This document shows, piece after piece, positions 16,825 through 37,159 of a DNA stretch of 64,000 bases. Location of the stretch: assembly GCA_003250475.1 (NCBI GenBank), contig QKGI01000016.1:1-64000 (forward strand), written 5' to 3'. The position numbers were made by a program, and so were the translations under genes. This stretch comes from Bacteroidota bacterium. Its GTDB lineage: Bacteria; Bacteroidota; Bacteroidia; Bacteroidales; VadinHA17. The notes beneath the pieces were generated by a model that saw nothing but the letters and a program-made list of their open reading frames with translations, searched no databases and had not been told where the DNA came from. How positions within the stretch are numbered: the stretch's first letter is position 1; each line of letters begins with the position of its first letter.

Positions 16825-16832
16825 TACTTTTG
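16825..16832 (+). promoter_or_regulatory. Candidate -7 promoter box for the 16869-33288 operon
   Basis: TACTTTTG is an exact TAnnTTTG match, 36 nt upstream of the amidase ATG at 16869. An alternative in-frame TTG start at 16830 would lie inside this box, which is one reason to prefer the ATG. The -33 element is poor. Confidence 0.5.
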
Positions 16833-16868
16833 AATCTGATTTATTATGTTCAGAAAAATCATTTCATA

Positions 16869-19886: not shown

Positions 19887-21385
19887 TGACGATGATGGAT
19901 AAGAAGGTAACATGTTTCCTGCCTTTCTCCGATGCGGCTTCAATGGCTGCCACGGTAAGGTCGATGAGGGAGTCGGGAGTAGCAGATAAAGTATTTGTAG
20001 TCGGGCCGGCAGGGGACAGTACCAGCCTCACGGATATGGAGGCTGCTTACCTGGAGTCGGAAGGATTTGCATCAACCGGTGCGCTGAAGAAGATGGCGGC
20101 AGCGACAGGCAGCAGGTATGTTCTGACCTACAGCAAGGGTTTCCCTCTCGATCTGGGTAAGTTCGCCCTGGCAAGGATGATACAGATATGTGATGACACG
20201 GGCGCTGGGATGGTATATTCAGATTATTTTGAGAAGAAGCAGGGTGTTATGTCACCTCATCCTGTCATCGACTACCAGGAGGGAAGCCTGAGAGATGACT
20301 TTAACTTTGGCTCGGTTATTCTTTATGATGCCCTGGCTTTCAAAGATGCCTGCAGCCGTATGGATGTTGACTACAGCTTCGCCGGCCTGTATGATCTGAG
20401 ACTGAAGATATCCCGGACCCATCCGATTGTGCATATACAGGAGTTGCTTTACACTGAGGTGGAGTCAGATATCCGCAAGACAGGAGAGAAGCAGTTTGAT
20501 TATGTTGACCCGCGCAACAGGGCAGTGCAGGTTGAGATGGAAAAATCCTGCACCAATCATCTCAAGTGTATCAATGCATGGCTTGAACCGCAATTCAGGG
20601 AGATTAAGTTTGAGGATCAAAGCTTTGACTATGATGCCTCTGTCATAATACCGGTAAGGAACAGGGTAAAGACTATCGGCGATGCAATAAAGTCGGTGCT
20701 GAGTCAGAAGACCAGCTACAGGTTTAACCTGATTATTGTTGATAACTACTCAACCGATGGTACTACTGATGTAATCCGGTCATTTACCTCCGACAGCAGG
20801 GTGGTGCACCTCATCCCTGGGAGGAAAGACCTGGGCATTGGAGGTTGCTGGAATGAGGCTATCTTCAGTGACAGGTGCGGCAGGTTTGCCATACAGCTTG
20901 ACAGTGATGACCTCTATATCGACGATGGTGTCATCACAAGGATCGTTGATGCCTTCCATGAACAGCAATGCGCCATGGTTGTCGGATCTTACAGAATGGT
21001 GAATTTCGATCTTGAGGAGATCCCTCCCGGCCTTATCGATCACAGGGAATGGACTCCTGATAATGGACGCAATAATGCCCTCAGGATAAATGGCCTGGGT
21101 GCTCCGAGGGCATTCTACACGCCGGTCCTTAGAGATATCAGGATCCCCAATGTGAGCTACGGTGAGGATTATGCGGTTGGACTGGCAATAAGTCGTCACT
21201 ACCAGATTGGAAGGATCTATGATCCGCTGTACCTGTGCCGGAGATGGGACGAGAATTCGGATGCCGTACTGGATGTCCCGAGAGCGAATGCTCATAATTT
21301 GTACAAGGACAGGATTAGGACAATAGAGCTGCTTGCGAGGAAGCGGATGATGGGCGGCAGCAAAAAACAGGGTTTAAATGACTGA
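19886..21385 (+). CDS. Family 2 glycosyltransferase, two GT-A-like halves
   Basis: 499 residues, no signal peptide or membrane helix. The C-terminal half (about 235-440) is a canonical GT2 domain: ASVIIPVRNRVKTIGDAI, the IIVDNYSTDGT strand and a DxD-type metal motif in QLDSDDLYIDD. The N-terminal half (about 8-220) resembles a degenerate GT-A fold, with a YSDYFEKK segment. Likely cytoplasmic and using a nucleotide sugar. Its start codon overlaps the amidase stop (TAATG) and its end overlaps the DUF4922 gene by 8 nt, so it is bound into the peptidoglycan operon. Its acceptor and reason for being there are unknown. Confidence 0.85.
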   Translation: MTMMDKKVTCFLPFSDAASMAATVRSMRESGVADKVFVVGPAGDSTSLTDMEAAYLESEGFASTGALKKMAAATGSRYVLTYSKGFPLDLGKFALARMIQICDDTGAGMVYSDYFEKKQGVMSPHPVIDYQEGSLRDDFNFGSVILYDALAFKDACSRMDVDYSFAGLYDLRLKISRTHPIVHIQELLYTEVESDIRKTGEKQFDYVDPRNRAVQVEMEKSCTNHLKCINAWLEPQFREIKFEDQSFDYDASVIIPVRNRVKTIGDAIKSVLSQKTSYRFNLIIVDNYSTDGTTDVIRSFTSDSRVVHLIPGRKDLGIGGCWNEAIFSDRCGRFAIQLDSDDLYIDDGVITRIVDAFHEQQCAMVVGSYRMVNFDLEEIPPGLIDHREWTPDNGRNNALRINGLGAPRAFYTPVLRDIRIPNVSYGEDYAVGLAISRHYQIGRIYDPLYLCRRWDENSDAVLDVPRANAHNLYKDRIRTIELLARKRMMGGSKKQGLND

Positions 21386-22316
21386 CTATTCCCGGAAAGT
21401 AAAGAATCTTTTTGACAACCAGTTAACAGGGTGGAGCCTGGCCCGTGACAACTATAAACAGCTTGACAATGTCAGGGTCAGGAAGATCAGATTTGATGGT
21501 TATGAAACGGATATTCAATTTAACCCCGGCCGTATTACCTCCTCGGCAGCCAGGGTTGATGCGAAGTCGATCGAAGCCAGACCATGCTTCCTGTGTGAAA
21601 AGAACCGTCCACCGGAACAGCAGGGTGTACAATACAATGAAGATTACCTGATCCTTATCAACCCTTTCCCTATCTTTCGCAGACATCTCACCATCGTTTC
21701 TGAGAAGCACACACCACAACGTATTGCAGGAAACTTCACAACTATGCTCAACCTGGCAAAATCCCTGCCGGAGTATGTCATTTTCTATAACGGTCCGCAG
21801 TGTGGAGCATCAGCTCCCGATCACCTTCACTTCCAGGCAGGAAACAGGGGGTTTCTCCCTGTGGAGAGGGATAGTGACAACATTCTCCTCTGTAAACGGG
21901 CTGAGGAGGTAAATGGAACGGAACTGTGGCTCTGGAGCGGATACGGAAGAGGGATGATGACGATCAAAGGTCATGATAGCGACCATCTGGCATCTGTTTT
22001 TCAGAGATTCTATGACAGGTTTTCCGCTGTTCAGCCCGACAGGCCGGAGCCGATGCTTAATATTCTTGCTTATCATAACGGGGACATATGGACAGTACAC
22101 ATTATACCTCGCAGGGTACACAGGCCGGCATGCTATTTTGCAGAGGGCGATGCCAGGATACTGTTGAGTCCTGCGTCAGTGGATATTGGCGGGGTATTTA
22201 TTACTCCTCGTGAAGAGGACTTCCTGAAGATGACTGCCGGAGATATCACAGCCATTCTGAAAGAGGTCTGCCTCAGCGAGGAAGAGGTCTTAAAACTAAC
22301 ATCCGGATTACTATGA
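21378..22316 (+). CDS. DUF4922 protein, HIT/GalT-like nucleotidyltransferase or phosphorylase
   Basis: 312 residues, cytoplasmic. Residues around 155 contain APDHLHFQ, the H-x-H-x-Q motif of the GalT/ADP-glucose phosphorylase branch of the HIT superfamily. Upstream are the family-typical RPCFLCEKNRPPEQQ (possible zinc-binding CxxC) and NPFPIFRRHLTIVSE. The layout matches DUF4922, which is uncharacterised. The fold predicts transfer or phosphorolysis of a nucleotide sugar, which would fit the glycosyltransferase just upstream (8-nt overlap). The SpoIID-like gene downstream overlaps by 4 nt. The substrate cannot be named from sequence. Confidence 0.8.
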   Translation: MTDYSRKVKNLFDNQLTGWSLARDNYKQLDNVRVRKIRFDGYETDIQFNPGRITSSAARVDAKSIEARPCFLCEKNRPPEQQGVQYNEDYLILINPFPIFRRHLTIVSEKHTPQRIAGNFTTMLNLAKSLPEYVIFYNGPQCGASAPDHLHFQAGNRGFLPVERDSDNILLCKRAEEVNGTELWLWSGYGRGMMTIKGHDSDHLASVFQRFYDRFSAVQPDRPEPMLNILAYHNGDIWTVHIIPRRVHRPACYFAEGDARILLSPASVDIGGVFITPREEDFLKMTAGDITAILKEVCLSEEEVLKLTSGLL

Positions 22317-23656
22317 CAGAAATGAAAGCACCGGAGATCAGTGTCGGAATCATCACCGGGGAAGAACTCACAGTGACACTTCATGGTACCTTTGGTTTTG
22401 GTGAATGCAACGATCAGTTGACCGGGAGTGTAAAAGTGAAACATGCGAATGAGAAAATCATTCTGCAGGGCGATGATATAAAAATTGAGGCAGGCAGGGA
22501 GATCACCCTGAAGCCATCCGGTAATGAGAAATGCAGCTTTACGCTGCATGCAGTTACTATCGGTGTTGATTTTCACTGGCAGAGAGACGAGGACCAGACA
22601 TTCACGGGCATGCTCCGGTTTATACTCCGGGGAGGAAAGATAACAGCAGTGAACATACTGCCTGTGGAGGATTACCTTGTGAGCGTCATCTCATCGGAGA
22701 TGAGCGCCACATCGTCAGGACAGCTGCTGAGGGCGCATGCTGTCATCTCCCGGAGCTGGCTGCTGGCACAGATTGACAAGACGTTGCGTCTTGTCACCGA
22801 TGGTGAGAAATACCGGACAAGCTTTGTCACCGAATCAGAGATTACCAGGTGGTATGACAGGGAGGACCATAAAGACTTTGACGTATGTGCCGATGATCAC
22901 TGTCAACGCTACCAGGGCATAACCAGGGCATCGGTGCCCGAGGTGGAAAAGGCTGTGAGAGAGACATGCGGCGAGGTTCTTATGTCGGGTGACTTTATCT
23001 GTGATGCCCGTTATTCAAAGAGCTGTGGCGGAGTCACAGAGCTCTTTGAGAACGTCTGGGAGCCTGTGAGCCATCCCTATCTGCAAAAGATCACTGACAA
23101 ACCTGCCGGGGCAGGCGACCTGACACCCGACCTTACATGTGAGGAAAATGCAGTTGAATGGATTAACGGCAATCCTGATGCTTTCTGCAACACAACCGAC
23201 AGTGCCATCCTTTCCCAGGTACTCAATAATTATGACCAGGAGACAACTGACTTTTACAGATGGAAAGTTGTTTACTCACAGCAGGAACTGAGTGATCTCG
23301 TCAGGGAGAAGACCGGCATTGACTTTGGTCTTATTAACGGACTTGAACCGCTCTCCAGGGGTACCTCGGGTAGAATTATAAGGCTGAAGATCATAGGAGA
23401 GAAGAAGACAATGATTATCGGGAAAGAGCTGGAAATAAGAAAGGCATTGTCAAAATCGCATCTTTACAGTTCTGCCTTCGTAGCAGAGAAGCAGTCCGGC
23501 CCGGAGGGAGTGACTTTCATGTTAAGGGGTGCCGGATGGGGACACGGCGTGGGATTCTGCCAGATAGGAGCTGCGGTTATGGGTGCCTCGGGATATAACT
23601 ACAGGGAGATACTGTCACACTACTTCGTTAGCTCTGTGATCAAAAAGCTTTACTGA
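22313..23656 (+). CDS. SpoIID/LytB-family protein (putative lytic transglycosylase), no signal peptide
   Basis: 447 residues. Family signatures: LPVEDYLVSVISSEM with putative catalytic Glu129, the AHAVISRSWLLA helix, SKSCGGVTELFENVW with the conserved Cys, and the C-terminal GWGHGVGFCQIGAAVMG. SpoIID of Bacillus cleaves glycan strands stripped of stem peptides. Unlike SpoIID, this protein begins directly with soluble sequence (EISVGIITGEELTV) and shows no signal peptide or membrane anchor, so as annotated it would be cytosolic. It overlaps the DUF4922 gene (ATGA) and ends 1 nt before the GH9 gene. Product and location both need testing, but family membership is clear. Confidence 0.85.
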   Translation: MTEMKAPEISVGIITGEELTVTLHGTFGFGECNDQLTGSVKVKHANEKIILQGDDIKIEAGREITLKPSGNEKCSFTLHAVTIGVDFHWQRDEDQTFTGMLRFILRGGKITAVNILPVEDYLVSVISSEMSATSSGQLLRAHAVISRSWLLAQIDKTLRLVTDGEKYRTSFVTESEITRWYDREDHKDFDVCADDHCQRYQGITRASVPEVEKAVRETCGEVLMSGDFICDARYSKSCGGVTELFENVWEPVSHPYLQKITDKPAGAGDLTPDLTCEENAVEWINGNPDAFCNTTDSAILSQVLNNYDQETTDFYRWKVVYSQQELSDLVREKTGIDFGLINGLEPLSRGTSGRIIRLKIIGEKKTMIIGKELEIRKALSKSHLYSSAFVAEKQSGPEGVTFMLRGAGWGHGVGFCQIGAAVMGASGYNYREILSHYFVSSVIKKLY

Positions 23657-23657
23657 G

Positions 23658-26129
23658 ATGAAAAAAACAGCACTCACTCTGCTTATTGCCGGTATTACTC
23701 TTCTCAGCTCAGGGGCCGGCTCGTGGATAAGGATCAACCAGCTTGGCTACCTGCCGGGTTCCGTGAAGGTAGCCGTATTTATGTCACAGGACCAGGAGGC
23801 GGGGCCCTCATTCAGCGTCTGTGAAGCACTAACGGGTAAGGTTGTATTTGATGGTGCCGCCACGTTATATGACGGATCGGTGTGGGGAATGGCATCGGCT
23901 GCCCGTCTCGATTTCTCGGAACTGAAAGAGCCGGGTGGATATTATATATCATACGGAAACACAAGGTCAGAGACTTTCCGTATCGGTTCCGGCGTATATG
24001 CCGGTACGGCCGATTTTCTGCTTAATTACGTGAGGCAGCAGCGCTGCGGCTATAATCCCTTCCTGGCTGATTCATGCCATACGCATGACGGGATGATCGT
24101 TGACCACCCCACCCTTACAGGTACCGTCATCGACGTGAGGGGAGGATACCATGATGCCAGCGATCACCTGAGGTACACAGCAACCACATCGACATCCGTA
24201 TACCAGATGATGTTTGCCTGGCTGAAGGCGCCGGAGGTATATGGCGACACTCATGACGCTGCCGGATCTCCGGGAAGCAACGGTATACCGGATATCCTTG
24301 ACGAGGCACGATGGGGACTGGAATGGCTGCTGAAGATGAATCCTGACAGCGGCGTGATGTATAACCAGGTAGCCGATGACCGTGACCACCGTGGCTTCCG
24401 GCTGCCTAACCTTGATGAGGCCGACTACGGCCTGGGGCCATACAGGCCTGTCTATTATGTGACGGGTAAACCTCAGGGGCTGGCAAAATACAGGAACCGC
24501 ACCGAAGGGGTAGCCTCCACAGCCGGCAAATTCGCTTCGGCATTTGCCATGGGAGCAAGAGTCTTTAAAGTGAGAGACCCGGAGTTCGCTAAGATAATGG
24601 CTGACAAGGCTGCCGATGCCTTTGAGTTTGCCACAACAGACCCCGGTGCTACCCAGACAGCCTGTAATGTATCTCCATACTTCTATGAGGAAGATAATTA
24701 TGTTGATGATATGGAGCTTGCCGCCTGGGAGTTGTATTCTCTGACAGGCGACAGCTACTACCTGGCCCAGGCTGATTACTGGGGTACCCTTGAACCCGTT
24801 ACCCCGTGGATCCTGGAAGATACTGCAAGGCATTACCAGTACTACCCCTTTGTAAACCTGGGCCATGCAAACATTGGTATGTCAGCGACAGACTATTCCG
24901 GGAAGTATACCGGGTTCCTGAGAAAAGGCCTTGAACTGATCAATAGCCGTGACCAGGATGATGTATTCCAGGTTAAAATACCATTTATATGGTGCTCCAA
25001 TAATTACGTCTCGGCGGCACTGACCCAGTGCAGGTTATATCGTGAGGCCACCGGTGACACCAGGTTTGACCGGATGGAAGCGGCACTGAGGGACTGGCTT
25101 TTCGGATGTAATCCCTGGGGCACATCGATGATATGCGGATTGCCTGCCGGCGGGGATTATCCGTTATACCCGCACTCTGCCGTAACCCTCTATCTTGGAG
25201 TGACCACCACCGGCGGACTGGTCGACGGACCTGTATATAAACGGATAAATAATAGCCTGAGCGGCCTGGCACTGCTTAGACCGGACACATACGCGGCATT
25301 CCAGAACGGGAACGTAGTCTATCATGACGACATAGGCGATTACAGCACCAATGAGCCTACACTCGATGGCACAGCAGGACTCAGTTACTACCTCTCAGCC
25401 CTGGAGAAGGAGGGAAGGGCTGAGGCTGCCGGTTCACCGAAAGACTTTTATGACACACAGGGAGCCGTGATCAGGAGAGGTGCTGATGAAAAGAGTATCT
25501 ACCTTCTCTTTTCTGCCGATGAGTTTGGTGAAGGATTTGATCATATCCTCAATGTCCTTGATAACAAGGGAATAAAGGGGTCTTTCTTTCTTACCGGTAA
25601 TTTCCTGAGAAATAAGAAATTTAAGGGAGTAACGAGGAGGATCATCTCCGGTGGCCACTATGTCGGTCCCCATTCAGATGGACACCTGCTATATGTCCCG
25701 TGGGAGAACCGTGATACCCTCCTTGTTACAAAAGAGCAATTCAATAAGGACTTAACAGACAATTATGCAGAACTGGTAAATGCCGGTCTGAAAAATACAA
25801 AGCCTGACTATTTTCTTGCCCCTTACGAGTGGTACAACAGGGCCATCACCCGCTGGAGTGAAGAAATGGGTATGACGCTTGTCAATTTTACTCCGGGTAC
25901 AGGCACCAATGCCGATTATACTACCCCGGACATGAAAAACTACAGGTCGTCTGAGCAGCTCGTTAAACGACTTGTGAGCTATGAGGAGAGTTCGCCTGAC
26001 GGACTGAACGGTGCAATGATACTGATTCACCCCGGCACCGCGCCGGAGCGTACAGACAAGCTCTATCTGAGGCTTGAAGAGATTATTGATTATTATATGG
26101 CAAAAGGTTACAATTTTAACAGGTTATAA
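23658..26129 (+). CDS. Exported GH9 glycosidase fused to a NodB-type polysaccharide deacetylase
   Basis: 823 residues. Signal peptide about 1-20. An N-terminal Ig-like domain (RINQLGYLPG) leads into the GH9 (alpha/alpha)6 domain at about 115-585, with the base/nucleophile pair D166/D169 in GGYHDASDH and acid E566 in TNEPTLDG. A C-terminal carbohydrate esterase 4-like domain occupies about 605-823: metal ligands D621, H672 and H676 (HSDGH) and the APYEWYN loop. The first Asp of the usual 'DD' is Ala here. GH9 includes cellulases and exo-beta-glucosaminidases. With a deacetylase attached and muropeptide genes all around, a GlcN/GlcNAc-containing glycan is more likely than cellulose. Confidence 0.85.
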   Translation: MKKTALTLLIAGITLLSSGAGSWIRINQLGYLPGSVKVAVFMSQDQEAGPSFSVCEALTGKVVFDGAATLYDGSVWGMASAARLDFSELKEPGGYYISYGNTRSETFRIGSGVYAGTADFLLNYVRQQRCGYNPFLADSCHTHDGMIVDHPTLTGTVIDVRGGYHDASDHLRYTATTSTSVYQMMFAWLKAPEVYGDTHDAAGSPGSNGIPDILDEARWGLEWLLKMNPDSGVMYNQVADDRDHRGFRLPNLDEADYGLGPYRPVYYVTGKPQGLAKYRNRTEGVASTAGKFASAFAMGARVFKVRDPEFAKIMADKAADAFEFATTDPGATQTACNVSPYFYEEDNYVDDMELAAWELYSLTGDSYYLAQADYWGTLEPVTPWILEDTARHYQYYPFVNLGHANIGMSATDYSGKYTGFLRKGLELINSRDQDDVFQVKIPFIWCSNNYVSAALTQCRLYREATGDTRFDRMEAALRDWLFGCNPWGTSMICGLPAGGDYPLYPHSAVTLYLGVTTTGGLVDGPVYKRINNSLSGLALLRPDTYAAFQNGNVVYHDDIGDYSTNEPTLDGTAGLSYYLSALEKEGRAEAAGSPKDFYDTQGAVIRRGADEKSIYLLFSADEFGEGFDHILNVLDNKGIKGSFFLTGNFLRNKKFKGVTRRIISGGHYVGPHSDGHLLYVPWENRDTLLVTKEQFNKDLTDNYAELVNAGLKNTKPDYFLAPYEWYNRAITRWSEEMGMTLVNFTPGTGTNADYTTPDMKNYRSSEQLVKRLVSYEESSPDGLNGAMILIHPGTAPERTDKLYLRLEEIIDYYMAKGYNFNRL

Positions 26130-26135
26130 TCCGGC

Positions 26136-27983
26136 ATGGCAACACAAAGAAAGAACCCTTCACCCTGGGCATGGATCCCTTCGCTTTATCTGGCTGAAGG
26201 ATTACCCTATGTAGCTGTAAACATCGTTTCGGTTATTATGTATAAGCGCATGGGAATCTCCAATGCCGACATAGCATTGTACACCAGCCTGCTTTACCTG
26301 CCATGGGTCATCAAACCTATATGGAGTCCGCTGGTGGATATGCTCAAAACAAAAAGATGGTGGATAGTCATAACGCAGCTTGTCCTGGGACTGGGTTTTG
26401 CGAGTATAGCCCTTTCCATTCCGGCATCGCTCTTTTTCAAGATCACACTGGCTTTCTTCTGGCTGCTGGCATTCGGCTCAGCGACGCACGATATTGCAGC
26501 AGATGGTTTCTATATGCTTGGCCTTGACACAAACAAACAGGCCAAGTATGTTGGCATAAGAAGCACTTTCTACAGGATTGCCACAATAACAGGCCAGGGG
26601 CTTCTTGTTATTCTTGCCGGGTTTCTTGAGAGCTCGTCGGGCAGGGAACCCGTGTCACTCTTCATAGAGGCATCCCCGCAATACAATAAAACCGTCCTGG
26701 AAATGCCGGTGGCTCGGGATTATGAAGGTAGCGGGGGAGAAGGAATGTATTTTTACCTCGACAACGACTCACTGCAGGTAAGCACACAGACTGTCGACAA
26801 GGATAGCCTGAACATGCTTCTCGATTCAGTGAAGGTCTCTAATTACAGAAACGGGTTTGTGCCGGAGGAAGAGAGGAAGGTGAAGACCGAAGGATGGTGG
26901 TCAAGCCGGGTATCGGGCCCACTGGGACAATGGATAAGGGATAACTTCGGCGAAGAGAGAAGCGCTGTGGCAGAGGTCTCCGGGAGCGTCTCGGTGGTAC
27001 CTGTCAGGCTTTCCCAGAAGCCTGACGCCGGTAAAAAGGTGGTCCTGAATACCGCCCTGAAAAAGGGAGACAAGAGCATTGCCCTCGTCCAGGGTGAACA
27101 TCTGGTCTTCACTGAAGCAAACTGGGACAAACCTGCCTATATGGTGTTTCAGGCAGATTCAAAGCTGGATAAATATACCTCGGTCAATTATGTCGGGCTG
27201 TCCGGAAACATACCGATGGCGTGGGCAGTCACATTCTTTGTTCTGGCAGGCCTTTTCCTCCTCCTTAGCTTTTATCACAGGATAGTGCTTCCAAAACCAG
27301 ATTCAGATATACCGCATGAAAATCTGAAAGCCTCAACTGTTCTGAAGGAGTTCGGTGAGACATTTGTGTCGTTCTTCAGTAAGCCGCAGGTAGGGATAGC
27401 ACTGTTTTTCATGCTGACATTCCGCTTTGCAGAGGCACAGTTACTGAAGCTGATCAATCCTTTCCTGCTCGACCCGATAGACAAGGGAGGACTGGGACTG
27501 ACAACAGGAGAGGTGGGCTTTGTCTATGGAACGGTTGGTATCATAGGACTCACTCTGGGAGGTATTATCGGAGGCATTGCCGCTGCCTACGGCGGACTGA
27601 AGAAGTGGGTGTGGCCCATGACCCTGAGTATGCTGCTTACAGCTGCAACATTCCTGTACCTTAGTTTTTCACAGACGGATAACCTGCTGATCATAAACAT
27701 CTGTGTTTTTATCGAGCAGTTCGGTTACGGGTTCGGTTTTACGGCATACATGCTCTATCTCATTTACTTTTCAGAGGGGAAATACAAAACGGCTCATTAT
27801 GCTATCAGCACCGGGTTTATGGCCTTGGGTATGATGCTGCCCGGAATGTTTGCAGGATGGCTCCAGGAACAACTTGGGTACAACCATTTTTTCCTGTGGG
27901 TGATGATGTGCAGTATAATACCGCTAATCGCTGTGGCCCTGCTTAAGATTGACCCAGAATTCGGAAAGAAGAGTACGAAGTAG
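26136..27983 (+). CDS. AmpG-like MFS muropeptide permease with a large hydrophilic insertion
   Basis: 615 residues against about 430-490 for typical AmpG. The N-terminal half has the AmpG-type start (SLYLAEGLPYVAVNIVSVI) and DxADGFYMLGL loop. The C-terminal half has six further helices and a FGYGFGFTAYMLYLIYFS segment typical of the family. Between them, residues about 167-357 form a hydrophilic, beta-rich insertion of roughly 190 residues that should lie outside the membrane. AmpG proteins import GlcNAc-anhydroMurNAc peptides or MurNAc into the cytoplasm by proton symport. The gene is 6 nt after the GH9 gene and 21 nt before the dehydrogenase, which fits an import step inside a recycling operon. 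Confidence 0.85.
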   Translation: MATQRKNPSPWAWIPSLYLAEGLPYVAVNIVSVIMYKRMGISNADIALYTSLLYLPWVIKPIWSPLVDMLKTKRWWIVITQLVLGLGFASIALSIPASLFFKITLAFFWLLAFGSATHDIAADGFYMLGLDTNKQAKYVGIRSTFYRIATITGQGLLVILAGFLESSSGREPVSLFIEASPQYNKTVLEMPVARDYEGSGGEGMYFYLDNDSLQVSTQTVDKDSLNMLLDSVKVSNYRNGFVPEEERKVKTEGWWSSRVSGPLGQWIRDNFGEERSAVAEVSGSVSVVPVRLSQKPDAGKKVVLNTALKKGDKSIALVQGEHLVFTEANWDKPAYMVFQADSKLDKYTSVNYVGLSGNIPMAWAVTFFVLAGLFLLLSFYHRIVLPKPDSDIPHENLKASTVLKEFGETFVSFFSKPQVGIALFFMLTFRFAEAQLLKLINPFLLDPIDKGGLGLTTGEVGFVYGTVGIIGLTLGGIIGGIAAAYGGLKKWVWPMTLSMLLTAATFLYLSFSQTDNLLIINICVFIEQFGYGFGFTAYMLYLIYFSEGKYKTAHYAISTGFMALGMMLPGMFAGWLQEQLGYNHFFLWVMMCSIIPLIAVALLKIDPEFGKKSTK

Positions 27984-28004
27984 TTTAATAAATGATCACA
28001 TTCC

Positions 28005-30935
28005 ATGAAAGAGGATCTAAGGTTCGAAAAGTTAAGGAAAGAGCTGGATGGTGATCTATACACCGACACCACCCAGCGTATCTTGTATGCCACCGATGCT
28101 TCTGCGTATCGCGAGGTGCCGGTTGCCGTTACGAGACCTGCAGGCAACGATGATATAAAGAAGATCATTGCCTTTGCACGCAACGAGGGGCTGAGCGTGA
28201 TACCACGCGGTGCCGGCACATCCCTTGCTGGCCAGGTGGTTGGCCCGGGCATTGTTGTTGACATTTCGAAATACCTTAACAGGATACTGGAATTCAACCG
28301 GGATGAACACTGGGTAAAGGTCGAACCCGGGGTTGTTCTTGCAGAGCTCAACAGGTATCTTGCTCCCTACCGGCTGCAGTTCGGGCCGGAGACCTCCACC
28401 GCAAACAGGTGCTGCATGGGAGGCATGCTTGGTAACAACTCATGCGGGGCTCACTCGCTCATACACGGTAGTGTCAGGGATCATATCCTTGAGGTCGATG
28501 CCATCCTCTCCGACGGATCGGAGGCCCACTTCAGCGCCCTGGATAGCAGGGAATTCAACGAAAGATGTGATGATGATCCCGCGCTGCTGCAGACAAGGAT
28601 TTACCGTAATCTCCGTGACACCCTCTCTGACCCTGTCAATGCCGGGGAGATAAAAAAAGAATTTCCCCACCCGGAACTGCCACGCCGGAACAACGGTTAT
28701 GCCCTTGACTCATTGCTGATGACAGACCCCTTCACCGGCAACGGTGAAAAGATAAATATATGTAAGCTGCTTGCCGGGTCCGAAGGCACGCTGGCCTTTA
28801 CCACGGCGATGAAGCTGAACCTGGTCCCGGTGACAGATCAGAAGACAGGGTTGCTGTGCGCTCACTTCGACAGCCTGCAGGACGCTGTCAGGGCGAATAT
28901 TATTGCCCTTAAACATCACCCTGCTGCCATTGAGCTTATTGATGACTACATTCTAAACTGTACAAAAGATAATATTGAGCAAAGCCATAACCGTTTCTTC
29001 GTAAAAGGAGACCCGAAGACTATACTCATTATTGAGATAACGAGACCCACCATCCTTGAGATAGAGCAGGCTGCCGCTGCCATGGAAAAGGATATGGTCA
29101 GCGCAGGCTTTGGCTACCATTTCCCTCTTTACACCGACCCCGGGGAGATGGCAAAGGTATGGGAACTGCGCAAGGCGGGCCTTGGTGTACTGCTTAACAT
29201 CCCCGGCAGGAGAAAGAGCGTACAGGTCATCGAAGATACTGCCGTTCTGCCTGAGCTCTTCCCCGGCTATATAGAGGAGGTGCAGCAGGTTCTTGACAAG
29301 TATGGACTGAGCTGTGCTTATTATGCACATATTGCTACGGGTGAGCTGCATCTCAGCCCCCTCCTGGATCTTAAGGATCCTGAGGATATTCGTACTTTCC
29401 ACGGGCTGGCTGAAGATATTGCACACCTGGTGAAGAAGTACCGGGGGTCACTAAGCGGTGAGCACGGAGACGGGAGACTGAGGGGTGAATTTATCCCCCT
29501 GATGCTCGGAGATCATAACTACGCTCTCCTCAAGGCGTTGAAAAAGACATGGGATCCTGCCGGGGTCTTCAACCCGGGGAAGATCACCGACACGCCGCCT
29601 ATAACAGATAACCTGAGATACCCGGCAGGGGCCAGAACACATGTGCCAGGGATCGTCTTCGGGTTCCCCGGCGAAGAGGGACTGCTCTATGCCACCGAGA
29701 AATGCAGCGGCTCGGCCGACTGCCGCAAAAGCGCCCTGATGGGGGGAACCATGTGCCCGACATTCATGGCTACCGGCGACGAAGACAAATCAACACGCGC
29801 CAGGGCAAATATCCTGAGGGAATTCCTGACGAGGTCGGAGAAAAAGGATCGTTTTGACCATGAGGAGATATACCGTGTGATGGACCTCTGCCTATCGTGT
29901 AAGGCATGCAAGTCGGAGTGCCCTTCGAATGTCGATGTCGCCAAATTCAAGGCCGAATTCATGCAGCACTATTATGATATCCACCATGTGCCTTTCCGCT
30001 CATGGCTGATAGCATGGCTGCCCAGGCTCTACAAGCCAGGCATGATGATCCGTCCGTTGACAAACCTGATTACAGGTACTGCCCTGTTCAAGCGGATTAT
30101 CGGCTTCTCGGTAAAGAGACCGATACCTGCACTGTCTCCTGTTACCCTCAGGTCATGGCGCCGCAGTCACAGGGACAACGGAACAGCAGGAAGAGGCAGC
30201 AAAGGTACTGTCTGCCTTTTTGCCGATGAGTTCACCAATTATAATGAAAGTGATATTGGTATCAAGGCTGTGATCCTGCTTGAGAAGCTTGGCTACGAGG
30301 TCATTATTCCCAGGCACAGGGAGAGCGGACGTACCTTTTTGTCAAAAGGTTTGTTGAGGTCGGCACGAAAACTGGCAGTCAAGAACATTTTGATGCTTCG
30401 CGATGTTGTAACGGACGAAAGTCCCCTTGTAGGAATTGAGCCCTCAGCGTTGCTGACCTTCCGCGATGAGTATCCGGAAATTGCCGGTAAAACCCTGGAA
30501 GGTGATGCGCGTAAGATAGCCGGCAATGCCTTACTCTTTGAGGAGTTCGTATGCAGGGAGATCGGGAGGGGTAACATAACCGCCGGGCAGTTCACCGACA
30601 GAGAAGCGAAGATACTGTTACACGGCCACTGCCAGCAAAAGGCAGTCGCCTCCACTGCGCCTACGATAACGATGCTCTCACTGCCGGTAAATTATTCGGT
30701 GGAAGAGATAAATGACGGCTGCTGTGGTATGGCCGGGGCTTTCGGTTACGAAAAGGAACATTATGATCTCAGCATGAAGATAGGAGAGATGGTGTTGTTC
30801 CCGGCTGTACGCGAAGCCTTACCGGAGACAATTGTCACGGCCCCGGGGACATCGTGCCGCCACCATATAGCGGACGGCACCGGCAGACATGCAGTACATC
30901 CCTTGGAGGTATTGTATGATGCGCTGATAAAATAA
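28005..30935 (+). CDS. FAD/Fe-S D-2-hydroxyacid dehydrogenase, probable D-lactate dehydrogenase
   Basis: 976 residues, no signal peptide. Order of domains: PCMH-type FAD-binding domain (about 35-260, with PRGAGTSLAGQ and the GGMLGNNSCGAHS loop), FAD-oxidase C-terminal domain (about 270-530, ending GEHGDGR and FNPGKI), a 4Fe-4S ferredoxin segment (C629/632/635/639, CLSCKACKSECP), and a CCG domain with C906-C907. This is the GlcD-GlcF-type fusion seen in D-lactate dehydrogenases and in YdiJ, an E. coli relative that acts on D-2-hydroxyglutarate. In an operon with AmpG and amino-sugar genes, D-lactate released by MurQ is the most economical substrate. D-2-hydroxyglutarate or glycolate remain alternatives. 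Confidence 0.8.
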   Translation: MKEDLRFEKLRKELDGDLYTDTTQRILYATDASAYREVPVAVTRPAGNDDIKKIIAFARNEGLSVIPRGAGTSLAGQVVGPGIVVDISKYLNRILEFNRDEHWVKVEPGVVLAELNRYLAPYRLQFGPETSTANRCCMGGMLGNNSCGAHSLIHGSVRDHILEVDAILSDGSEAHFSALDSREFNERCDDDPALLQTRIYRNLRDTLSDPVNAGEIKKEFPHPELPRRNNGYALDSLLMTDPFTGNGEKINICKLLAGSEGTLAFTTAMKLNLVPVTDQKTGLLCAHFDSLQDAVRANIIALKHHPAAIELIDDYILNCTKDNIEQSHNRFFVKGDPKTILIIEITRPTILEIEQAAAAMEKDMVSAGFGYHFPLYTDPGEMAKVWELRKAGLGVLLNIPGRRKSVQVIEDTAVLPELFPGYIEEVQQVLDKYGLSCAYYAHIATGELHLSPLLDLKDPEDIRTFHGLAEDIAHLVKKYRGSLSGEHGDGRLRGEFIPLMLGDHNYALLKALKKTWDPAGVFNPGKITDTPPITDNLRYPAGARTHVPGIVFGFPGEEGLLYATEKCSGSADCRKSALMGGTMCPTFMATGDEDKSTRARANILREFLTRSEKKDRFDHEEIYRVMDLCLSCKACKSECPSNVDVAKFKAEFMQHYYDIHHVPFRSWLIAWLPRLYKPGMMIRPLTNLITGTALFKRIIGFSVKRPIPALSPVTLRSWRRSHRDNGTAGRGSKGTVCLFADEFTNYNESDIGIKAVILLEKLGYEVIIPRHRESGRTFLSKGLLRSARKLAVKNILMLRDVVTDESPLVGIEPSALLTFRDEYPEIAGKTLEGDARKIAGNALLFEEFVCREIGRGNITAGQFTDREAKILLHGHCQQKAVASTAPTITMLSLPVNYSVEEINDGCCGMAGAFGYEKEHYDLSMKIGEMVLFPAVREALPETIVTAPGTSCRHHIADGTGRHAVHPLEVLYDALIK

Positions 30936-30957
30936 CATCGGATTAAATGGACACATT

Positions 30958-33288
30958 ATGAATACAAATGGATTTAGCAAGGTTGAACAGGCATTCTTCC
31001 TCCGTTCAGGCAGGAAAAGCATATCTGCAAAGATGCCTTATGTGGTGGTGAGCAATTTCCCGGGGCTGGGACTCCTGACTGCACTGCGGTTTCTTGAATG
31101 GGTCTCGCAAAACCCCGATGGCGTCATCAGCCTCCCGACAGGTAAAACGCCGGAATATTTTATCAAATGGACCCAATATCTTCTTAAGAACTGGGACAAG
31201 CCGGAAGCCAAAAAGATTCGTGAGGAGAACGGCCTCTTTCTCAATGAGAAACCTTCTCTCAGGGGTCTGCATTTTGTGCAGATAGATGAATTCTACCCTA
31301 TCGATCCGCGGCAGCACAACAGCTTCTTCGATTATGTGAGCAAGTATTATATTGCCGGGTTTGATCTTGATCCTTCAAAAGCTCTTCTTATCAATTCTGA
31401 TGAGATAACACTTGCCGAAGGGAAGCGTTACACAGAGGTCTTCCCCGATGACCTCATCGATCTGTCGCTGAGGAACAGGGAGGCACTGAACCCACTCGAG
31501 AAGCTCCAGCAGGAGTCGATATTCAGGATAGACAACTGGTGCACGAATTACGAGAAAAAGATAAGGGCACTCGGCGGTATAGGTTTCTTCCTGGGAGGTA
31601 TCGGTCCTGACGGCCATATCGCCTTCAATACCAGGGGGAGTGACCATAATTCGGCCACGAGGCTTACTGCAACAAACTTCGAGACACAGGCTGCCTCTGC
31701 CGGTGACCTGGGAGGGATAGAGGTGTCAAGAACAAGACTTGTCATTACAATAGGCCTTGGCACAATAACCTATAACCGTGATGCCGTATCGATAATCTTT
31801 GCCGCCGGTGATGCAAAGGCCCAGGTAGTAAGGGATGCCCTTGAAAACAATCCTGATAACCTCTATCCGGCAACGGTTCTGCAGAACCAGAAAAATGCGC
31901 GTTTTTATCTTACGGAGGGAGCATCGGTACAGCTGCACGATACAGTTGAGAGATATTATAAGGAGGGTAAATGGACTTTCGAGAAGACGGAGAGGGCGGT
32001 CTATGACCTGTGTCAGAAGATTGACAAATATGCCCATAAGCTTGTCCTGGATGACCTGAAGAATGACGAGTACTGCTCGCTGATCCCCGATCTGAGCCTG
32101 AAAACAGTGGGTGATGTGATTGAATCTACAAAGAGAAAGATCGAAGCCGGACTGAAGAGGGAGAGAAACACTACATTCTTTCATACCGGGCCTCACCATG
32201 ACGATATCATGCTGGGCATTTTCCCGGCAATAATTCCACAGCTGAGAGAGATCACCAATAAGTTTCATTTTTCAGTACTGACATCTGGCTTTACCGCTGT
32301 GACCAACTCAATGCTTCTCGGGCTGCTTGAGGAGACACAACGCCTTATTGCCCTCGAAAAGATACAGATGCTGAAATACCCTGACTTCTTCGAGTCAGGT
32401 TTTAAGTTCAAGTGGGATAAGGATGTAAGTCATTACCTTGACAAAGTGGCCGATAAGGATGATGCAGGAAAGCTACGGGGTATTTGCCACCGGATTGTCA
32501 GAGCGATGGTGGACATATATAACCTGAGGTCGCTGGAAGAGCTTACCGGACAGATCAATAAAAACATCGAGCTTATAAGGTCAAGCTACAGCGGGGAGAA
32601 GAATCCCCCTGACATACAGAAACTGAAGGGTATGCTCAGGGAGTATGAGGAGGAGCTTGTCTGGGCACATTACGGTGTTCCGGTAAGGAATATTGAACAT
32701 CTCAGGCTGGGATTCTACACGGGTGACATTTTCACCCAGCAGCCGGACCGTCACCGTGATGTGGAGCCGATCCTCGAGTGCCTGAGACGTATCAATCCCG
32801 GGTTCATAAGTCTTGCATTCGATCCCGAAGGATCAGGTCCGGATACACATTACAAGGTTCTTCAGGCCATTGCCGAAGCCCTGAGACAGTGGAGTACGGA
32901 GAAGGATCTGTCACATGTGAAGGTAATCGGATACCGTAATGTGTGGTTCAGGTTCCGTCCTTCGGAATCCAATGTTTTTGTGCCTGTTTCACTTAACTCC
33001 ATGGCTGTCCTGAACCAGTCATTCCGTGACTGTTATGTAAGCCAGGTGAACGCCTCATTCCCGAGCCCTGCTTATGACGGGCCGTTCAGTGACCTGTCGC
33101 AACAGGTCTGGGTGGAGCAATTCAAACAGGTGCAGTTGATCCTGGGCAAAGACTTTTTCTACGAGAATGAGAGTCCCAAGATACGGGGAACCCATGGCAT
33201 GATCTATTACAAGGAGATGCCCGTTGAGGAGTTCCTGCAGCATGCCCGTGAGCTGGAGAAGAGTGTAGAGGGGGAGATGCTTCACTGA
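30958..33288 (+). CDS. nagB: Glucosamine-6-phosphate deaminase fused to a PIG-L/LmbE-like domain
   Basis: 776 residues; stand-alone NagB is about 260. Residues about 25-355 are a NagB/6-phosphogluconolactonase-type domain: LPTGKTPEYF, the VQIDEFYPI acidic motif and GGIGPDGHIAFN with the catalytic histidine. Residues about 400-770 carry a PIG-L deacetylase-like domain starting at P412-H413-H414-D415-D416 and ending with a GPDTHYK segment that could supply the third metal ligand. NagB turns GlcN-6-P into fructose-6-P and ammonia. The attached domain may remove the acetyl group from GlcNAc-6-P, which would explain why no nagA is present here, but that is inference. Last gene of the operon, 9 nt from the convergent NamZ gene. 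Confidence 0.85.
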   Translation: MNTNGFSKVEQAFFLRSGRKSISAKMPYVVVSNFPGLGLLTALRFLEWVSQNPDGVISLPTGKTPEYFIKWTQYLLKNWDKPEAKKIREENGLFLNEKPSLRGLHFVQIDEFYPIDPRQHNSFFDYVSKYYIAGFDLDPSKALLINSDEITLAEGKRYTEVFPDDLIDLSLRNREALNPLEKLQQESIFRIDNWCTNYEKKIRALGGIGFFLGGIGPDGHIAFNTRGSDHNSATRLTATNFETQAASAGDLGGIEVSRTRLVITIGLGTITYNRDAVSIIFAAGDAKAQVVRDALENNPDNLYPATVLQNQKNARFYLTEGASVQLHDTVERYYKEGKWTFEKTERAVYDLCQKIDKYAHKLVLDDLKNDEYCSLIPDLSLKTVGDVIESTKRKIEAGLKRERNTTFFHTGPHHDDIMLGIFPAIIPQLREITNKFHFSVLTSGFTAVTNSMLLGLLEETQRLIALEKIQMLKYPDFFESGFKFKWDKDVSHYLDKVADKDDAGKLRGICHRIVRAMVDIYNLRSLEELTGQINKNIELIRSSYSGEKNPPDIQKLKGMLREYEEELVWAHYGVPVRNIEHLRLGFYTGDIFTQQPDRHRDVEPILECLRRINPGFISLAFDPEGSGPDTHYKVLQAIAEALRQWSTEKDLSHVKVIGYRNVWFRFRPSESNVFVPVSLNSMAVLNQSFRDCYVSQVNASFPSPAYDGPFSDLSQQVWVEQFKQVQLILGKDFFYENESPKIRGTHGMIYYKEMPVEEFLQHARELEKSVEGEMLH

Positions 33289-33297: not shown

Positions 33298-34554
33298 TCA
33301 CTCGTACAGGAAATACTTTGAGGCTTTTTCCCTGAAGGCCGGTATGTCAGCATACCACAACCCCTTTATGTCACTCACGAGGAACGATGAGGTGAATCTC
33401 TCTCTTACCTTATCGGTGCCACAGACATTGTCAAACATTGATAATCTTGACGGATCACACATCCTGAACAGGTCTTTGTCAGGCCACAGTCTATGCGCCT
33501 CCTGCATGATGTAAAACTGGAGGAGAGTGAGTGGAGCTTTTGCCGGGTCGGTCAGATGAATCTGCACACCGTGCACCATCTTTCCCTGAAGGGTACTATA
33601 ATAGGGTTTGTAGTGAATGGGTCTGAATATCACACCCGGGAGTCCCAGGTTGTTAAGACCGGCAGCCAGTGAATCAGCATTGATCCATTCAGCGGCAAAT
33701 GTCTGGAAGGGCAGCGTAAAGCCAACACCTATGCTTACTGCGTACAACTCTCCGGCAATCCCGGTGGCAGGGTAAAAGAGCGGAGTGTCTTTGTGGGGCA
33801 CATGAGGAGAAGACATTACCCATGGCAGACCAGTCTCTTCGAAATACATTTCCCGTGACCACCCGCTCATTTTCACTACATGAAGATCGCACCTGATGCC
33901 ATTGGCAAGCATGCCCTCGCCATTTAAAAACATAGCCAGTTCCCCCACAGTGAGTCCATGGATATAAGGTATGGCAAACTGACTGACAAAAGAGTAGAAG
34001 CCCGGGCGCGTAACCACACCCTCCATACGTATTCCCCCCAGAGGATTTGGCCTGTCAAGCACAACAACCGGTATGCCGTTCTCCGCGGCCGCTTCCATCA
34101 ACAGACCGAGAGTACTTATAAAGGTGTATGACCTGGAACCGATATCCTGGACATCATAGACAAGAACATCGATATCCCTGAGCATTTCTGCCGAAGGCTT
34201 GCGTGTCCTTCCATAAAGACTGTAAACGGGCAGCCCTGTCACCGGGTCTTTTTCAGAGTTAACATATTCACCCGCAGTGAACTCACCCCTGACCCCGTGC
34301 TCCGGACCATAAAGAGCCACAAGCCTCACCTCCGGGGCATTAAAAAAGATGTCAACTGTCGATCTCAGATAGCGGTCGACACCCGTAGGGTTAGTCACCA
34401 GACCAACTCTTTTTCCCTTGAGAATATCGAATTTATTCCCTACAAGGTTCTCCAGGCCTGTCTCAACCCTCTGGCCCTGCATAATTCCCGTGACCGTGAA
34501 TGTCAGTATGAACGTTATGAGAATGCCGGCGGTTGATTTGCTTAATGTTTTCAT
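33298..34554 (-). CDS. namZ: NamZ-like exo-beta-N-acetylmuramidase (DUF1343 family)
   Basis: 418 residues with a signal peptide (about 1-28). DUF1343 hallmarks are all visible: GLVTNPTGVDRYLRST, the acidic GPEHGVRGEF near residue 85, PVYSLYGRTRKPS, VYDVQDIGSRSYT and LDRPNPLGG. Members from Bacillus and Tannerella remove terminal MurNAc from the non-reducing end of peptidoglycan glycans (NamZ). An exported MurNAc-releasing enzyme feeds the kinase and MurQ encoded 17 kb away, linking both halves of the island. It is divergent from the NlpC/P60 gene across a 199-nt region with strong palindromes. Catalytic residues are assigned by family resemblance only. Confidence 0.88.
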   Translation of the reverse strand: MKTLSKSTAGILITFILTFTVTGIMQGQRVETGLENLVGNKFDILKGKRVGLVTNPTGVDRYLRSTVDIFFNAPEVRLVALYGPEHGVRGEFTAGEYVNSEKDPVTGLPVYSLYGRTRKPSAEMLRDIDVLVYDVQDIGSRSYTFISTLGLLMEAAAENGIPVVVLDRPNPLGGIRMEGVVTRPGFYSFVSQFAIPYIHGLTVGELAMFLNGEGMLANGIRCDLHVVKMSGWSREMYFEETGLPWVMSSPHVPHKDTPLFYPATGIAGELYAVSIGVGFTLPFQTFAAEWINADSLAAGLNNLGLPGVIFRPIHYKPYYSTLQGKMVHGVQIHLTDPAKAPLTLLQFYIMQEAHRLWPDKDLFRMCDPSRLSMFDNVCGTDKVRERFTSSFLVSDIKGLWYADIPAFREKASKYFLYE

Positions 34555-34753: not shown

Positions 34754-35926
34754 ATGAAACTCTTCAATTACCTAATTATCTTTTTCTGTGTGATTCAGCT
34801 ATCGGGTTGTCAGAAAAAGGAGGTTCCGGCAGAATTGCAGGAACAGCTTGATTCCATTGCCTCCGTCATGGTGCCGCAGCACGGAGAAGCGCTATGTGAC
34901 ATCTCGATGGTTATGTCAGACAGCAGAAGCATCACCGTTAAGGGTGAGACCAACCTGCCTGAAGCCAGGGATGCAGTCATTGCAATGCTGGACGGATCCG
35001 GATACAGTTACACGGACAGCATCACCGTTCTGCCTGATCCGGCGGTGGTTGAAAATCCCTGGGGACTGGTGAGTGTAAGTGTATGTAACATAAGGACCAA
35101 ACCGTCACATGCAGCGGAGATGGCGACACAGGCTCTTATGGGCACACCGGTAAAAATACTCAACAAGCGTGGCGGCTGGCTGTTGGTTCAGACACCCGAT
35201 TCCTATCTGGGATGGACTGATGATCCCGTGACCGGGATGAGCGATAGTGCGCTTGACGCCTGGAAAAAAGGTGACAGACTCATATATATGAAATATACCG
35301 GGGTTATTACTGACAAAGACAACCAGACGGTTTCGGACATTGTCTTCGGTGTCATTGTGGAAAAAACCGGTGAGCTTAAAGGTAATTACAGCGTAAGACT
35401 GCCTGACGGCAGAGAAGGATTTATCGGCAAAGGTGACGCTGTGGATTTCACGGCCTGGGCAGAGAAAACCGAACCCGATGCCGACAGGATGATAAAATTT
35501 GCCCGTACATTTCTTGGCACTCCATATCTCTGGGGCGGTACATCCACCAAAGCTATCGACTGCAGCGGGTTGACCAAGACAATTTATTATTCTGCCGGAT
35601 TGATACTTACACGTGATGCTTCCGGACAGTTCCGTTATGGAGAGAAAAGAAATATTGAGAATGTTTGTGACTCCCTGGTGCCGGGTGACCTGCTCTTTTT
35701 CGGCAGGGTCAGGGATGGTAAGACAAGGATTACCCATACCGGGATGTATATTGGTGACACAGAGTTCATCCACTCATCCAGCCTGGTGAAGATCAACAGT
35801 TTTGATTCCACCAGGACCAATTACAGTAAATATCTTCTCGAAATCCTTCAGGGAGCAAGAGGAATCATCGGTCTGACGCCGGGTGAGGGATTCGTTCGCG
35901 TAGCCATGCACCCATGGTATTTCTGA
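34754..35926 (+). CDS. NlpC/P60 gamma-D-glutamyl-peptidase lipoprotein
   Basis: 390 residues. Lipoprotein signal ends at Cys19 (QLSGC). Two bacterial SH3-type domains fill about 95-230 (for example LVSVSVCNIRTKPSHAAE), followed by the NlpC/P60 papain-like domain at about 240-385. Catalytic Cys270 is in DCSGLTK, His328 in THTGMYIG and the third residue is His340 in FIHSS. Such enzymes cut the D-Glu-meso-DAP bond of peptidoglycan stem peptides and release L-Ala-D-Glu. The next gene is an L-Ala-D/L-Glu epimerase, which uses exactly that dipeptide, so the functional pairing is strong. Predicted at the outer or inner membrane facing the periplasm. Confidence 0.93.
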   Translation: MKLFNYLIIFFCVIQLSGCQKKEVPAELQEQLDSIASVMVPQHGEALCDISMVMSDSRSITVKGETNLPEARDAVIAMLDGSGYSYTDSITVLPDPAVVENPWGLVSVSVCNIRTKPSHAAEMATQALMGTPVKILNKRGGWLLVQTPDSYLGWTDDPVTGMSDSALDAWKKGDRLIYMKYTGVITDKDNQTVSDIVFGVIVEKTGELKGNYSVRLPDGREGFIGKGDAVDFTAWAEKTEPDADRMIKFARTFLGTPYLWGGTSTKAIDCSGLTKTIYYSAGLILTRDASGQFRYGEKRNIENVCDSLVPGDLLFFGRVRDGKTRITHTGMYIGDTEFIHSSSLVKINSFDSTRTNYSKYLLEILQGARGIIGLTPGEGFVRVAMHPWYF

Positions 35927-36010: not shown

Positions 36011-37159
36011 ATGAAAAAAAGAGAATTTATTAAGTACAGTGGACTGGCAGCAGGTGCGCTGATAGCTGCAGGATGCACAGGATCTGCAGGTGCAGGTCCG
36101 GCTGTGAAAACCCAGCCACGCAGGAAAGGCAGCGGCGTATTAAAACTCACATACTGGCCCTATGAACTTCAGCTGAGACATGTCTTTACCGTGGCGACGA
36201 ACTCCAGGACCACCACGCCGGTGGTGCTCACCACTATAGAGTATGACGGAGTCACGGGTTATGGTGAGGCCTCCATGCCACCGTACCTTGGGGAGAGCCA
36301 CGAATCAGTGCTTAACTTTCTTTCAAAAGTTGATCTGGGACAGTTCAGCGATCCCTTCCTGATGGAGGATATCCTGGCCTATATTGACGGTATCATGCCT
36401 GGTAACCATGCGGCAAAGGCATCGGTTGACATTGCCCTGCATGACCTCGTGGGCAAGCTTATCGGTCAGCCATGGTTCAGGATATGGGGACTTGATCCTC
36501 AGAAAGCGCCGGTGACAAGCTTTACAATAGGCATTGACACTGCTGACGTGGTCAGGGAAAAGACCCTTGAGGCAAGCGCTTTCAGGCAGTTGAAGATCAA
36601 ACTGGGCAGAGATAATGACAGGGAGATGGTAGAGACAGTAAGATCTGTCACCGATGTGCCTGTTTTTGTTGATGTTAACCAGGGATGGAAAGACAGGAAC
36701 TATGCACTGGAGATGGCCCACTTCCTTGCTGAAAACAAAGCACTCTTCATTGAACAGCCTATGCCCAAGGAGCAGGTTGATGACATTGCGTGGCTGACGG
36801 AGAGAAGCCCGTTACCAATTATAGCTGACGAGGCGCTGCAGACAGTCAGTGACCTGCTTCCCATGAAAGGGATTTATTCTGGTATAAACATAAAACTCAT
36901 GAAATGCGGGGGAATGGATGCCGCATATAAGATGATTACCATGGCCAGACAGATGGATATGAAGATTTTGATAGGATGTATGACCGAAACTTCTTGCGCT
37001 GTCACGGCTGCTGCTCAGCTTTCTCCCCTGGTAGACTGGGCCGATCTCGACGGCAACCTTCTGATAAGCAATGATGTATATGAGGGCATGATTGTTACTG
37101 ATGGGAAGATTGTCCTTCCTGACAGGCCCGGTATAGGAATAATAGAGAAAAAAAGTTGA
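36011..37159 (+). CDS. L-Ala-D/L-Glu (dipeptide) epimerase, enolase superfamily
   Basis: 382 residues. The muconate-lactonizing subgroup residues are in place: K195-I-K197 (the two-base lysines), metal ligands D221 (VDVNQGW), E248 (IEQPM) and D273 (ADEAL), and the opposite-face K295 (INIKLMKCGG). This set is typical of dipeptide epimerases that convert L-Ala-D-Glu to L-Ala-L-Glu, so the dipeptide can be degraded normally. An unusual point is the N terminus: a signal-like segment with a lipobox-type cysteine (LIAAGC at about 22-27) and a KKREF start resembling a Tat or lipoprotein leader. The enzyme may therefore be periplasmic. It lies 84 nt after nlpC/P60. Confidence 0.9.
   Translation: MKKREFIKYSGLAAGALIAAGCTGSAGAGPAVKTQPRRKGSGVLKLTYWPYELQLRHVFTVATNSRTTTPVVLTTIEYDGVTGYGEASMPPYLGESHESVLNFLSKVDLGQFSDPFLMEDILAYIDGIMPGNHAAKASVDIALHDLVGKLIGQPWFRIWGLDPQKAPVTSFTIGIDTADVVREKTLEASAFRQLKIKLGRDNDREMVETVRSVTDVPVFVDVNQGWKDRNYALEMAHFLAENKALFIEQPMPKEQVDDIAWLTERSPLPIIADEALQTVSDLLPMKGIYSGINIKLMKCGGMDAAYKMITMARQMDMKILIGCMTETSCAVTAAAQLSPLVDWADLDGNLLISNDVYEGMIVTDGKIVLPDRPGIGIIEKKS

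Follow-up and report, generated by a model that had tools for sequence, protein, structure and literature searches.

In the MurQ route of muropeptide recycling, one D-lactate is freed for every MurNAc, and most recycling schemes omit its fate. The locus described here raises the question of whether this lactate is oxidized by an enzyme encoded among the muropeptide genes themselves. The window, a 64,000-nucleotide stretch of DNA that forms part of contig C127 of a 3.47-Mb Bacteroidota genome (G000), carries a gene, here called copy A, that the first-pass annotation read as an apparent D-lactate dehydrogenase situated within the muropeptide operon, where it could oxidize the lactate that MurQ releases. 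Taking its sequence and setting together, we consider it quite probable that the product of copy A is a cytosolic FAD/[4Fe-4S] D-2-hydroxyacid dehydrogenase that descends from YdiJ-type enzymes and whose substrate has shifted to D-lactate. The gene set on which this reading turns is as follows, with the basis for each assignment in parentheses.

14972..15814, minus strand: MurQ, MurNAc-6-P etherase, the source of D-lactate (TIGR00274, 306.6 bits versus a cut-off of 302)
15819..16667, minus strand: MurK-like sugar kinase of the divergent unit (no Pfam match; 39 to 58% identical to the MurQ-adjoining kinase of other Bacteroidales loci)
16830..19886, plus strand: Golvesin/Amidase_3/fn3 protein, operon gene 1 (the Tannerella forsythia gene at the same position is annotated as xanthan lyase; PMC5388701)
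19886..21385, plus strand: glycosyltransferase-like gene, a conserved operon member (synteny)
21378..22316, plus strand: DUF4922 (Ap4A-phosphorylase-like) operon member (Pfam)
22313..23656, plus strand: SpoIID/LytB protein (PF08486; TIGR02669 above cut-off)
23658..26129, plus strand: CelD_N-GH9-polysaccharide deacetylase fusion (domain matches)
26136..27983, plus strand: AmpG-family muropeptide permease, 615 aa (MFS_1/BT1; TIGR00901 at 144 bits, below its cut-off)
28005..30935, plus strand: copy A, FAD/[4Fe-4S] D-2-hydroxyacid dehydrogenase, putative D-lactate dehydrogenase (976 aa, ATG start)
30958..33288, plus strand: NagB-like protein, 776 aa, of the PRK02122 kind (below curated cut-offs for true NagB)
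33298..34554, minus strand: NamZ exo-N-acetylmuramidase (PF07075 / PF20732)
34754..35926, plus strand: SH3-NlpC/P60 peptidase, for the muropeptide stem (Pfam)
36011..37159, plus strand: probable dipeptide epimerase (reading of the translation; synteny)

Copy A is the seventh of eight genes in an operon that runs from 16830 to 33288 and whose neighbouring genes overlap or lie at most 22 nt apart. The gap from AmpG to copy A is 21 nt and that from copy A to the NagB-like gene is 22 nt, exactly the tight spacing that had been claimed. The order Amidase-GT-DUF4922-SpoIID-AmpG, with NamZ, MurK, and MurQ nearby, identifies the locus as a Bacteroidales muropeptide operon. Two details of the first-pass annotation need amending. 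The gene labelled NagB is where it was said to be, but its product is a NagB-like protein of the PRK02122 kind that scores under the curated cut-offs for true NagB. Likewise, the operon itself stands, but a transcript shared with MurQ does not: murK-murQ is transcribed divergently as a unit of its own, with 162 bp between it and the first operon gene, and some 12 kb separate MurQ from copy A.

Several members of this gene set have features of their own. The GH9-deacetylase fusion is conserved across the genus, in an odd setting for a GH9 enzyme, and it may act on peptidoglycan. The AmpG of the window has about 190 extra residues (roughly 170 to 355) relative to the shorter AmpG of many relatives. 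Genome G000 encodes four NamZ homologues (on C127, C125, C164, and C3), of which only the window copy is of the operon-associated type.

The open reading frame of copy A is intact. Pfam places FAD_binding_4 at residues 40 to 175, FAD-oxidase_C at 283 to 527, and a 4Fe-4S dicluster domain at 565 to 644, and residues 618 to 974 match GlpC (PRK11168) and, more weakly, GlcF. The proposal of a GlcD/GlcF-type FAD and Fe-S dehydrogenase is therefore borne out, here as a fusion on a single chain. Alignment reveals that the Arg/His/His/Glu/His substrate and metal site of D-lactate dehydrogenases is present, with R389, H442, H449, E486, and H487 of copy A equivalent to R347, H398, H405, E442, and H443 of mouse LDHD (mLDHD). 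Among proteins of solved structure, glycolate oxidase and mLDHD come closest in sequence, and matches to solved structures cover the FAD and substrate domains alone; no fused YdiJ-type structure was found among them. An AlphaFold2 model, whose alignment held distant homologues only, had a mean pLDDT of 58.6, too weak for use. Mammalian LDHD (PDB 8jdb/8jdc) shares with copy A the FAD and substrate domains and the catalytic residues, but it has no Fe-S module.

Homology does not confer the name D-lactate dehydrogenase, because copy A sits in the YdiJ branch. Its best curated match is NF049975 (YdiJ, D-2-hydroxyglutarate dehydrogenase), at 557.7 bits versus a cut-off of 1350, and the GlcD model TIGR00387 gives 196.3 bits versus 567.9. 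Moreover, FAD_binding_4, FAD-oxidase_C, 4Fe-4S, and a GlcF/GlpC-like C-terminus on one chain are the domain set of YdiJ. Naming copy A by its best family match was considered and rejected, as the YdiJ, GlcD, GlpC, and LdhH equivalogs all score under their cut-offs. Compared with E. coli YdiJ, copy A is alike in domain order, length, family branch, and catalytic residues; it is unlike it in sequence (28% identity), in having Ser451 for a pocket Arg, and in its muropeptide-operon setting.

At three loci (L051, L054, and L097), a YdiJ-type dehydrogenase gene adjoins an HGLS-like (2-oxoadipate dioxygenase/decarboxylase) gene, assigned by PF07063 in the first and by BLAST similarity in the other two. 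HGLS yields D-2-hydroxyglutarate. This adjacency is in line with D-2-hydroxyglutarate as the ancestral YdiJ-type substrate, and it suggests that these Bacteroidota break down 2-oxoadipate via D-2-hydroxyglutarate.

The YdiJ enzymes of E. coli and Pantoea ananatis are strict for D-2-hydroxyglutarate and have no D-lactate activity (PMC9504171), and so homology alone would lead to a different reading. Copy A could still be a D-2-hydroxyglutarate (or D-malate) dehydrogenase, placed in the operon by general carbon metabolism or by chance co-regulation. The curated match, the branching of copy A within the YdiJ-type tree, and the HGLS-adjoining relatives all favour this alternative, and SerA could provide the substrate (PMC9504171). 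We nevertheless hold it to be unlikely, on the evidence of the substrate pocket, of a second YdiJ-type gene, and of gene order.

First, in human D2HGDH, Thr390, Lys401, Tyr432, and Asn443 bind the distal carboxylate of the substrate (PMC7801405). The corresponding subsite B of mouse LDHD is instead hydrophobic, lined by Val101, Trp351, Ser365, and Ile407, and the enzyme accepts many hydrophobic 2-hydroxyacids (PMC10589216). Direct alignment to LDHD puts residue 451 of copy A, two residues past the second metal-binding His, at the position of D2HGDH Asn443 and mLDHD Ile407. This residue is Ser in 17/17 copies of A; in the other 53 YdiJ-type sequences compared, among them that of E. coli, it is Arg (51) or Lys (2). 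We infer that the YdiJ-type Arg would hold the distal carboxylate of D-2-hydroxyglutarate, and copy A has lost the basic residue that typifies YdiJ at the subsite-B position. Its subsite B is uncharged at 451, but with Ser rather than a hydrophobic Ile or Val, and overall it reads Leu/Ile/Ser, versus Trp/Ser/Ile in mammalian LDHD. Only 14 of the 976 positions split copy A cleanly from other Bacteroidota YdiJ-type sequences, and three of these (405, 438, and 451) are near active-site residues in sequence. Leu393 (R+4) and the K401 equivalent are the same as in YdiJ-type enzymes.

Second, the genus already has another YdiJ-type paralogue, copy B (C152:9212-12220 in genome G000, L073), which is about 51% identical to copy A and keeps the pocket Arg. 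Copy B is divergent from pta, ackA, and phosphate butyryltransferase (ptb)-like genes and has a carbon-nitrogen hydrolase gene downstream, a neighbourhood common to the single YdiJ-type copies of several other genera in the same family. In a quickly built maximum-likelihood tree, copy A forms one clade (support 100) that is sister to L094/L095 of another family, and copy B groups with its own family. The idea that copy A is a local duplicate of copy B was rejected, as these placements, by a quick method, disagree with it. Because the two copies branch apart in this way, copy A appears to be an extra gene, either acquired or anciently diverged, and not a recent copy of B. Copy B holds both the ancestral neighbourhood and the ancestral tree position, and therefore the ancestral function would be covered elsewhere than by copy A.

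Third, copy A is present in 20 of 22 congeneric genomes, the two that lack it being drafts that are 61% and 89% complete, and all 13 high-quality genomes of the genus encode MurQ. In each of the 16 congeneric loci fetched, copy A is flanked by AmpG and the NagB-like gene, which makes chance an inadequate explanation of the arrangement. Four of the congeneric loci (L037, L038, L039, and L044) have an AmpG that is only 41% identical, with synteny unchanged. Across the order, where the sampled genomes include drafts, a YdiJ-type match occurs in 130 of 198 genomes; outside the genus, none of the other 129 genomes that carry YdiJ-type genes has one beside an AmpG or NagB-like gene. The nearest relative of copy A outside the genus is 62% identical among the 198 order genomes, and no match beyond the genus exceeds 57% in 296 genomes of the phylum, so that in these samples copy A occurs in this genus only. 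Such strict synteny speaks against a role in general carbon metabolism.

Additional evidence comes from a second FAD/Fe-S subfamily, a GlcD-GlcF fusion of about 943 aa that occupies equivalent operons in other Bacteroidales. At 24 to 29% identity, copy A falls outside this subfamily, which is absent from all genomes of the window's genus and present in 19 of 198 order genomes. Eleven of these 19 also carry the operon-type NamZ, and in five of the eleven (G042, G159, G144, G076, and G199, from four families) the ~943-aa gene lies less than 500 bp from it; the probability of this by chance is, by a rough estimate that ignores kinship between genomes, 3e-14. A scan of named genomes found a muropeptide gene within 6 kb in 37 of the 80 best loci and at least two such genes nearby in 29 of the 80, although the figure of 37 overstates the general frequency because the scan was seeded with operon members. 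The typical order is Amidase-GT-DUF4922-SpoIID-AmpG-NamZ-dehydrogenase-X-MurK-MurQ, and it is found in Bacteroides cellulosilyticus DSM 14838, B. reticulotermitis, B. muris, Odoribacter, and Muribaculaceae. Among the few non-operon loci examined, the ~943-aa gene is directly 3' of an LctP lactate permease gene in Marinifilum flexuosum and directly 3' of an acetate kinase gene at L207.

The ~943-aa fusion resembles copy A in overall architecture, in the kind of operon it occupies, and in having a neutral substrate pocket. It differs in that its pocket is hydrophobic, the second His being followed by F[I/V] in each of the 72 sequences whose motif could be located, and in its place between NamZ and the murT-position gene. 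Context and pocket residues make it a probable D-lactate dehydrogenase. Because distinct subfamilies fill equivalent operons in different lineages, two unrelated FAD/Fe-S dehydrogenases appear to have been recruited to MurNAc-catabolic operons. The product common to the two gene sets is D-lactate, from MurQ, and this parallel is the strongest argument for the lactate idea. The claim that copy A oxidizes MurQ-derived D-lactate thus gains from context, namely genus-wide synteny, the parallel subfamily, and the loss of Arg, but not from homology, which leads to YdiJ.

The murT-position gene of Bacteroides-type operons (L115:16212-17360 and L134:13018-14205) matches HGSNAT_cat / NagX (glucosamine N-acetyltransferase). 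T. forsythia MurT is reportedly a sodium-symporter-type MurNAc transporter.

A further alternative is that copy A oxidizes another small D-2-hydroxyacid, such as glycolate, D-glycerate, or a wide range of short 2-hydroxyacids, with D-lactate as one of several substrates. A subsite that is neutral yet polar at Ser451 would suit this, as would the two top solved relatives, one of them the broadly acting mLDHD (PMC10589216). We regard it as quite improbable, since D-lactate from MurQ is the only obvious 2-hydroxyacid of the gene set and no glycolate or glycerate pathway gene was seen in the neighbourhood. Finally, there is very little chance that copy A is a co-transcribed passenger unrelated to MurNAc use: operons can hold unrelated genes, and many Bacteroidales muropeptide operons have no dehydrogenase (T. 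forsythia, PMC5388701; L130, L132, and L133), but the position of copy A is kept genus-wide even where AmpG has diverged as described, and a different FAD/Fe-S dehydrogenase has entered the equivalent operon.

Under the preferred reading of copy A as a D-lactate dehydrogenase, MurNAc would enter via AmpG or be freed by NamZ, MurK would phosphorylate it, and MurQ would then cleave the product to GlcNAc-6-P and D-lactate. Copy A would bind D-lactate through the five catalytic residues aligned with those of mLDHD, and hydride would pass from D-lactate to FAD, leaving pyruvate. The fused GlcF/GlpC-like Fe-S module would then carry the electrons away, with menaquinone as their most likely acceptor. 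Ser451, in place of the YdiJ-type Arg, would remove the positive charge expected to grip the distal carboxylate of D-2-hydroxyglutarate.

Comparison with known systems indicates which parts of this proposal are new. The muropeptide operon of T. forsythia (Tanf_08345-08385) has no dehydrogenase (PMC5388701). It matches the window in its amidase/xanthan-lyase position, GT, second GT-annotated gene (at the DUF4922 position), LytB, AmpG, NamZ, MurK, and MurQ; in the window, NamZ and MurK-MurQ are encoded on the strand opposite to the operon. What becomes of the lactate is not followed in the T. forsythia papers that were searched. For engineered Corynebacterium glutamicum, the build-up of D-lactate from MurNAc is discussed in PMC6165865. 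Fidelibacter multiformis, a member of another phylum, reportedly uses D-lactate and oxidizes MurQ-derived D-lactate to pyruvate by a D-lactate dehydrogenase (PMC11652737); its likeness to the window is one of reaction. The step was fairly described at the outset as rarely discussed, but given Fidelibacter, the biochemistry as such had been put forward before. Searches of the open-access literature, whose coverage is incomplete, found no paper on dehydrogenases within the muropeptide operons of Bacteroidales, and against that literature the recurrent operon placement by two subfamilies and the YdiJ-type pocket switch seem to be new.

More broadly, we lean, if only just, toward the view that, in Bacteroidota, oxidizing the lactyl group of MurNAc has become an integral part of muropeptide catabolism at least twice, by way of two unrelated FAD/Fe-S dehydrogenases, and that in the present lineage a D-2-hydroxyglutarate enzyme became a D-lactate enzyme largely through loss of the pocket Arg. 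The Arg-to-Ser change offers a one-residue handle on what makes a YdiJ-type enzyme select 2-hydroxyglutarate or lactate. Also, because cultured gut Bacteroides carry a dehydrogenase within the same operon, species already kept in laboratories are suited to testing the lactate idea. If the proposal is true, an operon-encoded dehydrogenase would turn the lactyl group into pyruvate and a reduced carrier, and the peptidoglycan of foreign bacteria would be an energy source for these organisms besides a source of sugar.
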